Part shown: in pieces, positions 16,689-19,940 of the stretch
How the letters are laid out: every line of letters starts with the position of its first letter
Numbering within the stretch: position 1 is the stretch's first letter
Virus record (IMG/VR): IMGVR_UViG_3300020188_000070
Span: 1 to 20,211 of that record
Length of the DNA stretch: 20,211 bases
Source of the DNA: a virus
Strand: one strand, 5' to 3'
Program-made: the position numbers and the translations under genes
Notes under the pieces: model-generated
Database searches by the model: none
Told to the model about the DNA's origin: nothing
The model's input: the letters and a program-made list of their open reading frames with translations, nothing else

Positions 16689-16882
16689 AAAAAATACCCA
16701 CTGCTCCTAAAAAAACAGATAAGTACAAAAAAAAAGTAGCTAGTGCGCCAGTGTTTTCTAGTAGAGAAGCGGCGGAAAAACACCGAAAAGAAAAAGGTGG
16801 GACAGTAGCAGTCGATATGGGAAGTTACCATTTATACATATTTCCAAATGGAAGTACTTCGTCTATAGGAAAACCGAAATGA
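16685..16882 (+). CDS. Small Lys-rich protein, function unknown
   Basis: A 65-residue protein with ATG 16685 overlapping the endolysin stop (ATGA) and GGAGAG nearby. The first 20 residues are disordered and basic, including KTDKYKKK. The rest (FSSREAAEKHRKEKGGTVAV, then YHLYIFPNGS) looks like a small alpha-beta unit: helix, Gly-Gly turn, two strands. No membrane segment or cysteine is present. Its stop overlaps the small-terminase start by four bases, tying it to both lysis and packaging genes. I do not recognise a family. Confidence 0.68.
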   Translation: MKKIPTAPKKTDKYKKKVASAPVFSSREAAEKHRKEKGGTVAVDMGSYHLYIFPNGSTSSIGKPK

Positions 16883-17085
16883 GCAGAGAAATCTTAGACT
16901 CCCTGCATGATGCAGTAAGCCAAGAGCTACTTGCTCGTGTCCGTACTGGCGAAGCTACAGCCTCAGAGCTATCCGTAGCCGTCAAGTTCCTCAAAGACAA
17001 CGGAGCCAGCCTAGACGTTATAACTGCTGAGTCTCCTTTAGGTAGCCTCCTAGAAAGCCTGCCGTTTGATTCAGTGACTAACTAA
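16879..17085 (+). CDS. Small terminase subunit-like protein (T7 gp18 position)
   Basis: A 68-residue helical protein (T7 gp18: 89 aa). It consists of a helix ILDSLHDAVSQELLARVRTG, a turn, a second helix EATASELSVAVKFLKDNGAS and a tail SPLGSLLESLPFD. The pattern L-H-x-x-V-x-x-E-L-L-x-R-x-x-x-G-E-A-x-x-x-E-L-x-x-A-x-K-F-L-K-D-N is one I associate with small terminase/DNA maturase A proteins of T7-like marine phages. It would bind the packaging site and load TerL. ATG 16879 overlaps the previous stop, with AGGA about nine bases upstream. TerL follows after two inserted genes. Confidence 0.8.
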   Translation: MSREILDSLHDAVSQELLARVRTGEATASELSVAVKFLKDNGASLDVITAESPLGSLLESLPFDSVTN

Positions 17086-17087
17086 TA

Positions 17088-17222
17088 ATGAAAAGTCCCT
17101 GCGTAGGTATCTGTAAACTTGATAAGCAGGATAAGTACTGCGTTGGGTGTGGCAGAACAATGGAACAAATCCGTAATCATTATCTAAAGGACGCAGCAAA
17201 CTATGGCTCCAAGAAACCATAA
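17088..17222 (+). CDS. DUF1289-like four-cysteine miniprotein
   Basis: This is a complete 44-residue open frame. The sequence SPCVGICKLD followed by YCVGCGRTMEQI matches the DUF1289 family layout, C-x3-C then C-x2-C (C5, C9, C18, C21). That suggests a metal- or Fe-S-binding knuckle, and the biochemical role of the family is not known to me. The start is ATG 17088, three bases after the TerS stop, without a strong Shine-Dalgarno. The last 20 bases overlap the start of the oxygenase-like gene, and its body contains that gene's AAAGGA site (17185-17190), so the two are translationally linked. Such proteins are common in proteobacterial genomes, so acquisition from a host is plausible. Confidence 0.8.
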   Translation: MKSPCVGICKLDKQDKYCVGCGRTMEQIRNHYLKDAANYGSKKP

Positions 17223-18276
17223 GCAATGGCGTACAAAGCCTAACGTAGAATATGTTAGCTCCCTCATCTACTCAGACCAAGACCTATATGAGCAAGAAAT
17301 AGAACAGATATTCTCTAAGGTCTGGGTTCCATGTTTTCACAAAAGTGAACTACCACATGCTGGTAATTTCAGAACTGGTCAGATAGCAGGTCAGAACATA
17401 CTTGCTTACAACACTGGCAAGGAGATAGTTGCCTATCGTAACTACGATGTGAATGAGCCTAGTGGTACGTTTGCGGCTCCTATTGTCACCTCAGAACCAA
17501 AGCTACATTGCGAAGTAAAGCATGGCGGTATGGTCTGGATAACCTTAGACCCTAATCCTACCCAGAGTGTAGAAGAATGGACAGGTGGTGCTTTTGATTG
17601 CATTGCTGGTGCTATTGGTACTGAAGAGCTAGAGGTATTCCACTATCACAAGGCTATCATAGATACCAACTACAAGCTTTGGCACGATACAAACTCAGAG
17701 TTCTATCACGATTTCATGCACTATTTTAATCGTGTGTCAGGATTTAACGATGAGTACTTTGCCAGAAAGAACATTCCTTTCGATAACGGTCACGTTAACG
17801 TCAGCAGCTTCACGGTAAACTACGAAGAATATGATGGCTTTGAAGATAGAGGCGAACTCTCCTTCCCTACCCTGCCCCCAAACCAATGGTACATGGTAGA
17901 TTTATTCCCAGGATATAACTTTAATCTACGAGGCTCAGCTTACCGTAGCGATAGCGTCACTCCTCTAGCACCTAACAAGGTTCTCATAGAGTTCAGAGGT
18001 TATGGCCTCAAGAGTGACAGTGAAAAAGACAGAGCTACTCGTATTAAACACCACAACTCTATCTGGGGTGGCTTCGGACGTAACCTACACGAAGACCTAA
18101 TAGGTGTAGCAGGACAAGGTACAACCATGCGTCCAGCTACTGAAGAGCGTTATATCCTCCACGGCAGACACGAGAATGGAACAATCCACGATGAGGTTGG
18201 TATGAGACATTATTATAGCGAATGGTCTAAATGGCTAGGCGTTGACGCTAGTAATCCAAAGGCACTAGCTGCTTGA
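17203..18276 (+). CDS. Rieske-oxygenase-like protein (ring-hydroxylating / methanesulfonate monooxygenase alpha type) lacking the 2Fe-2S ligands
   Basis: The 357 residues follow ring-hydroxylating oxygenase alpha subunits end to end. The start is IFSKVWVPCFHKSELPHAGN, then strands GQNILAYNTGKEIVAYRNY. MVWITLDPNPTQSVEEW (110-126) matches the usual VFVNLDP segment. The catalytic part has NYKLWHDTNSEFYHDFMHYF (156-175), and IWGGFGRNLHEDLIGVAGQG occurs at 287-306. Likely mononuclear-iron ligands are H169 and H173 with D298 or E297, and E166 as bridging acid; the spacing H-x3-H is shorter than the usual H-x4-H. The Rieske pairs C-x-H and C-x2-H are absent: N-Y-D-V-N stands where N-V-C-R-H is expected, and the domain is shortened. 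It overlaps DUF1289 upstream and terL downstream. Oxygenase activity is therefore doubtful. Confidence 0.8.
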   Translation: MAPRNHKQWRTKPNVEYVSSLIYSDQDLYEQEIEQIFSKVWVPCFHKSELPHAGNFRTGQIAGQNILAYNTGKEIVAYRNYDVNEPSGTFAAPIVTSEPKLHCEVKHGGMVWITLDPNPTQSVEEWTGGAFDCIAGAIGTEELEVFHYHKAIIDTNYKLWHDTNSEFYHDFMHYFNRVSGFNDEYFARKNIPFDNGHVNVSSFTVNYEEYDGFEDRGELSFPTLPPNQWYMVDLFPGYNFNLRGSAYRSDSVTPLAPNKVLIEFRGYGLKSDSEKDRATRIKHHNSIWGGFGRNLHEDLIGVAGQGTTMRPATEERYILHGRHENGTIHDEVGMRHYYSEWSKWLGVDASNPKALAA

Positions 18277-19940
18277 ACGTACCAGTTCAACTGCAGGACT
18301 TCAGAAACTTTTTATTCATAGTATGGAAACACCTTGGCCTCCCAGAGCCTACCCCGATACAGTACGACATTGCAGATTACCTGCAGAGTAGTCCTAAACG
18401 AGCCATCATTGAGGCTTTTCGTGGGGTAGGCAAAAGCTATATCACGGCAGCTTATGTCGTACACCAGCTTCTGCTAGACCCAGAGTTAAAGTTTCTTGTC
18501 GTATCTGCATCGAAGTCTCGTGCTGATGACTTCTCCACCTTTACCCAACGGATTATCCTAGAGCTACCCATATGTCAGCACCTAGTAGCCAAGGATACCC
18601 AACGATGGTCAAAGATTGCCTTTGACGTAGCCCCTGCCAAAGCAGCAGGTAGCCCCTCAGTCAAGTCTGTGGGCGTGACAGGCCAGCTTACTGGCTCTCG
18701 TGCCGACATAATCATTGCTGATGACGTAGAAGTACCCAACAACTCCATGACCCAGATGATGCGCGAGAAGCTCAGCGAGGCAGTCAAGGAGTTTGACGCT
18801 ATCCTAAAGCCAGATGGCAAGGTTGTGTACCTTGGAACCCCTCAAAATGAGATGTCCCTGTACAATACTTTACTAGAGCGTGGCTATGCCATGCGTGTAT
18901 GGCCTGCAAGGTATCCTACCGTAGAGGACTCTCAGAAGGCCTACAGCGGGCGTTTGGCTCCTTTCCTATGGAACACACTAGAGAAGGACTCAGAGGCCGT
19001 CAGTGGGACTCCTACGGACTCTAAACGCTTTTCTGATGAAGATTTGATAGAAAGAGAGCTTAGTTATGGCAGAAGCGGTTTCGCTTTACAATTTATGCTT
19101 GATACTAGCATGTCTGATGCTGATAGATTTCCTCTCAAGATAGCAGACCTGATTGTCTACCCCTGTGATATTGACACAGCACCAGAGAAACTGGTCTGGG
19201 GTATCTTCAAACCTATTGATAGCATCCCTAATGTAGCGTTGTCTGGTGACCGTTTCTACGCCCCAGAGGACACCATAGGGCGTTCAAGCTACACAGGTAG
19301 TGTTCTTGCCATTGACCCTTCTGGTAGAGGCTCAGATGAGACAGCATACGCTGTTGTGAAGATGCTTAACGGTTTCCTGCACGTTGCAGCGGCTGGAGGC
19401 ATAGCTGGGGGTTACAGTAGTGAAACTCTGACCACCATAGCTAACCTAGCGAAAGACCATAAGGTTAACGCTGTGCTGATTGAGAGTAACTTTGGTGACG
19501 GTATGTTCACCGAACTGCTCAAACCCTACATGACTAAGGTGTACCCTGTGTCTATGGAGGAAGTCAGACATAGTAAGCAGAAGGAAGCTAGGATTATAGA
19601 CACTCTGGAACCTGTAATGAACCAGCATAGGCTCGTTATAGACCCCACAGTGCTGCAGAAAGACTACGATAGCGTACAGCACCTCCCCCCTGAGAAGGCC
19701 ATGAGGTACATGCTGACCTATCAGATGACTAGGATTACACGTCAGCGTGGTGCTTTGGCTCACGATGATAGGTTGGATGTTTTAGCTATGGCTGTGCAGT
19801 ACTGGGTAGAGCAGATGGCTGCTGATGCAGACACAGAAATCAGGGTCAGGAAATCTGAATTATTGGATAACGAGTTAGATAGGTTTTTATCCCATGTAAA
19901 CACCAGTAACCATAGGCCAAAGGCCAGTTCGTGGTTCTAA
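18273..19940 (+). CDS. Large terminase subunit (T7 gp19-like)
   Basis: A 555-residue packaging ATPase/nuclease (T7 gp19: 586). The ATPase domain has Walker A FRGVGKS (49-55) and Walker B IIIADD (146-151). Between them, SPSVKSVGVTGQLTGSRAD is nearly identical to T7. The C-terminal RNase H-type nuclease has acidic clusters at AIDPSGRGSDE (D348), IESNFGDG (E404) and HDDRLD (D498/D499). The start is TTG 18273, inside the overlap TTGA with the preceding stop; the protein aligns with T7 from just after this point (FRNFLFIVWKHLGLPEPT), so no later start is likely. Translation probably depends on coupling to the oxygenase-like gene. Confidence 0.95.
   Translation: MNVPVQLQDFRNFLFIVWKHLGLPEPTPIQYDIADYLQSSPKRAIIEAFRGVGKSYITAAYVVHQLLLDPELKFLVVSASKSRADDFSTFTQRIILELPICQHLVAKDTQRWSKIAFDVAPAKAAGSPSVKSVGVTGQLTGSRADIIIADDVEVPNNSMTQMMREKLSEAVKEFDAILKPDGKVVYLGTPQNEMSLYNTLLERGYAMRVWPARYPTVEDSQKAYSGRLAPFLWNTLEKDSEAVSGTPTDSKRFSDEDLIERELSYGRSGFALQFMLDTSMSDADRFPLKIADLIVYPCDIDTAPEKLVWGIFKPIDSIPNVALSGDRFYAPEDTIGRSSYTGSVLAIDPSGRGSDETAYAVVKMLNGFLHVAAAGGIAGGYSSETLTTIANLAKDHKVNAVLIESNFGDGMFTELLKPYMTKVYPVSMEEVRHSKQKEARIIDTLEPVMNQHRLVIDPTVLQKDYDSVQHLPPEKAMRYMLTYQMTRITRQRGALAHDDRLDVLAMAVQYWVEQMAADADTEIRVRKSELLDNELDRFLSHVNTSNHRPKASSWF

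Follow-up and report, generated by a model that had tools for sequence, protein, structure and literature searches.

Known Rieske-type oxygenases

Within a single chain of a Rieske oxygenase, the metal centres are more than 40 Å from each other, and electrons move instead to the adjacent chain, over about 12 Å, by way of a bridging acid (PMC7948474, PMC12445004). The role of this acid has been described for the carnitine monooxygenase CntA, in which the bridging glutamate E205 is needed for inter-subunit electron transfer (PMC7948474). A natural division of such an enzyme has been characterised for NdmC and the Rieske-bearing NdmD, a fusion of the split-off Rieske domain with a reductase (PMC4408171). 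Phage proteins similar to the methanesulfonate monooxygenase alpha subunit, MsmA, but without the Rieske motif were published in 2015 for phage HMO-2011 (PMC4433239), and a text search of a study of HMO-2011-type phages (PMC9038755) found no mention of the gene. The missing motif itself is therefore already known; what was not found published is the presence of a complementary partner and, with it, a split of the enzyme as the reason for the missing motif, the search having covered an open-access collection of papers.

The oxygenase gene of the phage window

The window, that is, the whole stretch of 20,211 nucleotides analysed here (IMG/VR record IMGVR_UViG_3300020188_000070), encodes on its plus strand a clusterless MsmA-type oxygenase alpha subunit of 357 amino acids (17203..18276, from ATG to TGA, with the plausible ribosome-binding site AAAGGA upstream), for which a role as the catalytic half in a split oxygenase is proposed below. 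Among named records, ADW08429.1 of phage HMO-2011, annotated as methanesulfonate monooxygenase, is the closest, with 73% identity over the full length. The Pfam search of the window protein gave a match to Ring_hydroxyl_A (PF00848) at residues 141-345 that exceeds the cut-off (E 6.6e-6), and no match to a Rieske domain. As had been noticed earlier, the Rieske ligands are missing: the protein has three cysteines (44, 103, and 133), no CxH...CxxH was found in its sequence, and the CxH-x26-CxxH spacer of the MsmA type is absent.

In the alignment with canonical MsmA, what is gone from the window protein is a lobe of about 45 residues with the CxH-x26-CxxH motif; its N-terminal segment, Rieske beta scaffold, and catalytic domain are all retained. 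The relic of the Rieske domain comprises residues 21-115 (17263..17547, plus strand), with the scaffold visible in the MsmA alignment as well as in AlphaFold strands at residues 42-114, and the excision point of the cluster-binding lobe falls around residues 80-99 (17440-17499, plus strand). The earlier reading is to be corrected in that the Rieske domain is not wholly missing: the lobe has been excised, and the scaffold has been kept.

The iron site had been assigned to E166, H169, H173, and E297/D298. H169 and H173, which are part of the motif EFYHDFMH at residues 166-173 (17698..17721, plus strand), and D298, the probable third iron ligand in the E297-D298 pair of the NLHED motif (18091..18096, plus strand), are all present in the window protein; E166, however, is more plausibly the acid that bridges the subunits than a ligand of the iron, because it aligns with the glutamate of the CntA motif ECYH, which is E205. 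The protein has the catalytic domain and the fold of a Rieske oxygenase alpha subunit and, in its sequence, the 2-His-1-carboxylate site and the bridging acid, and it lacks CxH-xn-CxxH. Judged from these motifs, the product of 17203-18276 is an MsmA-type Rieske-oxygenase alpha subunit with an intact iron-site motif and no Rieske ligands.

The AlphaFold monomer model of the window protein (pLDDT 79.5, pTM 0.84) matches alpha subunits from Rieske oxygenases of the naphthalene/biphenyl dioxygenase type, with a Z of 28.8 and an rmsd of 3.4 over 321 aligned residues (12-347) against naphthalene dioxygenase alpha. The structural overlay that had been suggested recovers the fold, including the scaffold of the Rieske domain. 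The model is of low confidence near residues 179-184 and 290-297 and hence does not establish how the third ligand is placed.

The gene is located, as stated in the preliminary description, between the genes for the terminase small subunit terS (DNA_Packaging_2 of the T7 type by Pfam; 16879..17085, plus strand) and the terminase large subunit terL (T7 type, with a TTG start; 18273..19940, plus strand), the latter overlapping the oxygenase stop and being nearest to Roseobacter phages, at about 61%, an affinity that weighs against the reading proposed below. Between terS and the oxygenase gene there is also a gene for a DUF1289 protein of 44 amino acids with four invariant cysteines (PF06945, E 1.2e-12; 17088..17222, plus strand), a possible accessory that is not required.

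Phage homologues

Clusterless relatives of the window protein are encoded on at least 598 viral contigs. The iron-site motif (ExxHxxxH with NLHED) is present in all 125 distinct phage proteins and CxH-x10..35-CxxH in none of them, so the homologue survey proposed earlier gave the same picture as the window; canonical MsmA, for comparison, has both the Rieske and the iron-site motif in 18/18 proteins. One phage clusterless copy has an in-frame stop in its N-terminal part (L052:744-1811).

Chromosomal homologues in SAR116 and their proposed partner

The host-side scan of 84,980 species genomes found three kinds of relative. These include canonical MsmA of about 403 amino acids in Hyphomicrobiales and others, plus one locus of SAR116 MED-G04 (L107); chromosomal clusterless copies of about 355 amino acids in SAR116-type genomes, with 72-78% identity to the window protein; and two copies on what are apparently phage contigs (L085, L098). 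None of the 17 SAR116 clusterless proteins has the Rieske motif. The view that the clusterless form is held by phages alone is not supported, since SAR116 chromosomes carry the clusterless copy beside a partner having both a Rieske motif and a reductase.

The genes conserved in the operon-like surroundings of the chromosomal clusterless copies encode a substrate-binding protein, an ABC transporter, a protein of about 800 amino acids, and an MsmB-like protein (beta-subunit/SnoaL-like), as well as an MsmC-like Rieske ferredoxin, a LysR regulator, TauE sulfite exporters, and C1-folate enzymes. In some genomes, several kb separate the clusterless gene from that of the ~800-aa partner. The conserved set also has, in the interval from the ferredoxin to the clusterless gene, a protein of about 280 amino acids with no Pfam match, which may be an assembly factor (L089:6953-7789 and L144:14555-15382). 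In the same interval, genome G029 has a large molybdopterin-type oxidoreductase and two more genes (L144:9912-14502), which would fit the dmsABC cluster described close to msmA in SAR116 (PMC8547437).

The ~800-aa partner starts as an MsmA with the full CxH-x26-CxxH; the catalytic domain that follows lacks EFYHDFMH and GRNLHED, and the C-terminal part is a Pyr_redox_2/Reductase_C reductase of the NAD(P)H type; CxH-x26-CxxH was found in 10/10 of these proteins and the iron site in 0/10. The decay of the catalytic domain is least advanced in G029, where the helix is still recognisable as KFHQDFMK against EFYHDFMH, having lysine in place of the bridging glutamate and glutamine and lysine in place of the two histidine ligands, and where the segment of the third ligand is lost. 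The G029 assembly, one contig of 2,753,527 bases, encodes exactly two MsmA proteins of these kinds, one with the Rieske motif and one clusterless. Its size and this pair, which fits the two MsmA proteins, one of them with the Rieske motif, reported for IMCC1322 (PMC4433239), suggest that G029 is Ca. Puniceispirillum marinum IMCC1322, the bacterium that HMO-2011 infects. If so, the host in the one cultured phage-host pair for the clusterless gene would have the split system. In another genome (G010), an in-frame TGA separates the alpha part of the partner from the reductase (L147:13189-15575), corresponding either to a natural un-fusing or to a sequencing error, and G014 has fragments. The AlphaFold models are of single chains, and that of the ~800-aa partner is too poor to be used (pLDDT 55.8).

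The clusterless gene is present in 12/61 SAR116-family genomes, the partner in the same 12, and neither in the other 49, a co-occurrence that is not independent per genome, since the 12 are related and the two genes are often in one operon. One of them (G009) has two clusterless and two partner genes. SAR116 genomes encode together a clusterless subunit and a separate Rieske-bearing reductase, as expected of a split oxygenase of the NdmC/NdmD type; in phages, the catalytic half alone was found.

Both proteins were compared across the 10 genomes with both genes. The Rieske half of the partner has 90.4% identity against 37.8% for its catalytic half, and the clusterless protein has 76.6% in the relic Rieske part against 93.9% in the catalytic part, with canonical MsmA as a control at 84.8% and 86.0%, respectively. 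In 45/45 genome pairs, the Rieske half was better conserved in the partner than in the clusterless protein; for the catalytic half the order was the reverse, again in 45/45. Such reciprocal constraint is the pattern expected if each of two paralogues retained one half-function.

The clusterless proteins of phages and SAR116 group together in a single clade (100/100) next to canonical MsmA, which is consistent with one loss of the Rieske lobe; the catalytic-domain tree has long branches for the partners. In the tree with the 100/100 clade, the SAR116 copies formed one clade (100/99) nested among the phage proteins; the AU test, however, did not reject a single phage clade (p-AU 0.37), so that transfer between phage and host may have gone in either direction.

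Viral contigs were also scanned for electron-delivering components. Neither the MsmA part of the partner nor the canonical Rieske region nor MsmB was found on them in these scans, which find close relatives only, and a phage-encoded electron partner was discarded as a candidate after the scans gave none beyond two reductase-only matches.

Proposed split oxygenase and alternative explanations

From the complementary losses, the reciprocal constraint, the co-occurrence, the conserved iron and bridging residues, and the result of the viral-contig scans, here it is proposed that the window protein is quite likely the phage-encoded catalytic subunit of a split MsmA-type Rieske oxygenase, which borrows its other half from the host. 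With slightly less confidence, but still as the probable course of events, the split is attributed to complementary decay of two MsmA paralogues in SAR116, with widespread marine phages carrying the catalytic half and exploiting the electron-delivering half of the host in trans. In this process, an ancestral MsmA would have been divided between two paralogous subunits, the one of about 800 amino acids, with a reductase fused at its C-terminus, keeping the Rieske motif and losing the iron ligands and the bridging acid from its catalytic domain, and the one of about 355 amino acids keeping the iron site together with E166 as the bridging glutamate and losing the Rieske lobe.

The two halves may complement each other in a mixed ring, with electrons crossing the subunit interface. 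A ring of this kind, in which electrons would be passed in trans, is suggested because the donor and acceptor sides are on different proteins and because NdmC and NdmD provide a precedent. Electrons would pass from NAD(P)H to the fused reductase, perhaps with the MsmC-like ferredoxin, then to the Rieske cluster of the partner, and through E166/H169 to the iron. There, the enzyme would oxidise its substrate, which is probably methanesulfonate or a similar sulfonate. Upon infection, the phage would add the catalytic half and borrow the partner, the MsmB-like protein, and the ferredoxin of the host, so that the activity may be raised or re-tuned. Of the roles listed in the preliminary description, an alternative electron route is the one that fits best, and the SAR116 partner data now name its likely path.

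Alternatively, the phage protein might be an inhibitor, a poor subunit whose entry into the mixed ring stops sulfonate oxidation, sparing NADH or changing host metabolism. Assembly with host subunits would be expected with catalytic domains as alike as those of the phage and host clusterless proteins (85-96% identity), and the N-terminal relic has diverged from that of the host (about 48-63% identity), which also counts against the split model, as it could mean a different partner surface. Inhibition is nonetheless improbable, given that 125/125 proteins have the same iron-site and bridging residues and that constraint within the phage protein is strongest in the catalytic domain, whose active site would not have to work in an inhibitor, with a median pairwise dN/dS of 0.022 (residues 141-345) against 0.092 in the relic (residues 1-130) and 0.051 in the whole protein. 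A test for purifying selection on H169, H173, and D298 had been proposed; the phage gene is under strong purifying selection, and the codons of these three residues change only synonymously (CAC/CAT 55/26, CAT/CAC 41/40, and GAC/GAT 55/26, respectively), as does that of E166 (GAG/GAA 59/22). The constraint on the catalytic domain and the synonymous changes in the ligand codons speak against the sequestration, dominant-negative, and virion or packaging roles considered earlier.

About equally improbable is a direct delivery of electrons to the phage subunit, without the ~800-aa partner, by the host MsmC-like ferredoxin or by the four-cysteine DUF1289 protein of the phage. The SAR116 cluster does encode a Rieske-type ferredoxin, the end of the DUF1289 gene overlaps the oxygenase start by 20 nt in the window, and 30/31 DUF1289 matches in phage loci are within about 2 kb and on the same strand, in several arrangements (L160, L192, L187, L208-L210, L055). 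However, most loci with an oxygenase homologue have no DUF1289 match nearby, and the reverse scan of related phage DUF1289 loci found the oxygenase motif in 22/80 and none in 58/80 within the fetched DNA, ruling out DUF1289 as an obligate partner. In one phage, DUF1289 is apparently fused to the N-terminus of a lysozyme (L198:5155-5733), which points to the lysis module. Direct delivery would also not explain why, in hosts, the clusterless gene and the partner always occur together.

Less probable still is that the protein was repurposed for binding, sequestration, packaging, or a role in the virion, with an iron that is no longer catalytic. Its gene lies between terS and terL in the phage group of the window, and the preliminary description took it for a core part of the late operon on these grounds; this order, however, is restricted to close relatives of the window (L003-L006, L033), and in most others, including HMO-2011, the oxygenase gene is elsewhere in the late/lysis region, in several genome contexts. 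Additionally, every metal and bridging residue has been kept through synonymous codon changes, and the chromosomal copies adjoin msm-like metabolic genes. A local deletion or assembly error as the cause of the missing lobe is ruled out by its absence from 125 distinct phage and 17 SAR116 proteins.

Comparison with known systems

If the split-oxygenase proposal is true, an oxygenase without its own electron relay would show how a virus can contribute half of an enzyme to its host, and two paralogues with complementary losses would be a second route to a split Rieske oxygenase besides NdmCDE. The 'msmA' annotations of phages and of many marine genomes would need care, as a clusterless copy would mark a split system, and a survey based on the Rieske motif would count the partner and miss the catalytic subunit. 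Because the gene is common among viral contigs, phages may influence marine organosulfur oxidation.

Among described proteins, ADW08429.1 of HMO-2011 belongs to the same family, with 73% identity and likewise no Rieske ligands, in another type of phage and at another genome position. CntA has the same fold, and its bridging glutamate and first iron histidine align with E166 and H169; however, it is a homotrimer with both centres in every chain. Similarly to MsmABCD, the window protein has a homologous catalytic domain (overall 59-66% identity) with the same iron site, and the SAR116 partner keeps the 26-residue spacer; in the canonical enzyme, in contrast, a single chain has both the Rieske motif and the iron site and the reductase is a protein of its own, functions that are divided differently in SAR116. 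The caffeine N7-demethylase NdmCDE of Pseudomonas putida CBB5 also has a non-heme-iron subunit without its own Rieske cluster, served by a Rieske-reductase fusion (PMC4408171), although it belongs to another subfamily, acts on another substrate, and requires the GST-like NdmE. Unlike NdmCDE, the proposed donor in SAR116 is a decayed MsmA alpha chain joined to Pyr_redox_2/Reductase_C, and the catalytic half is also found in phages.
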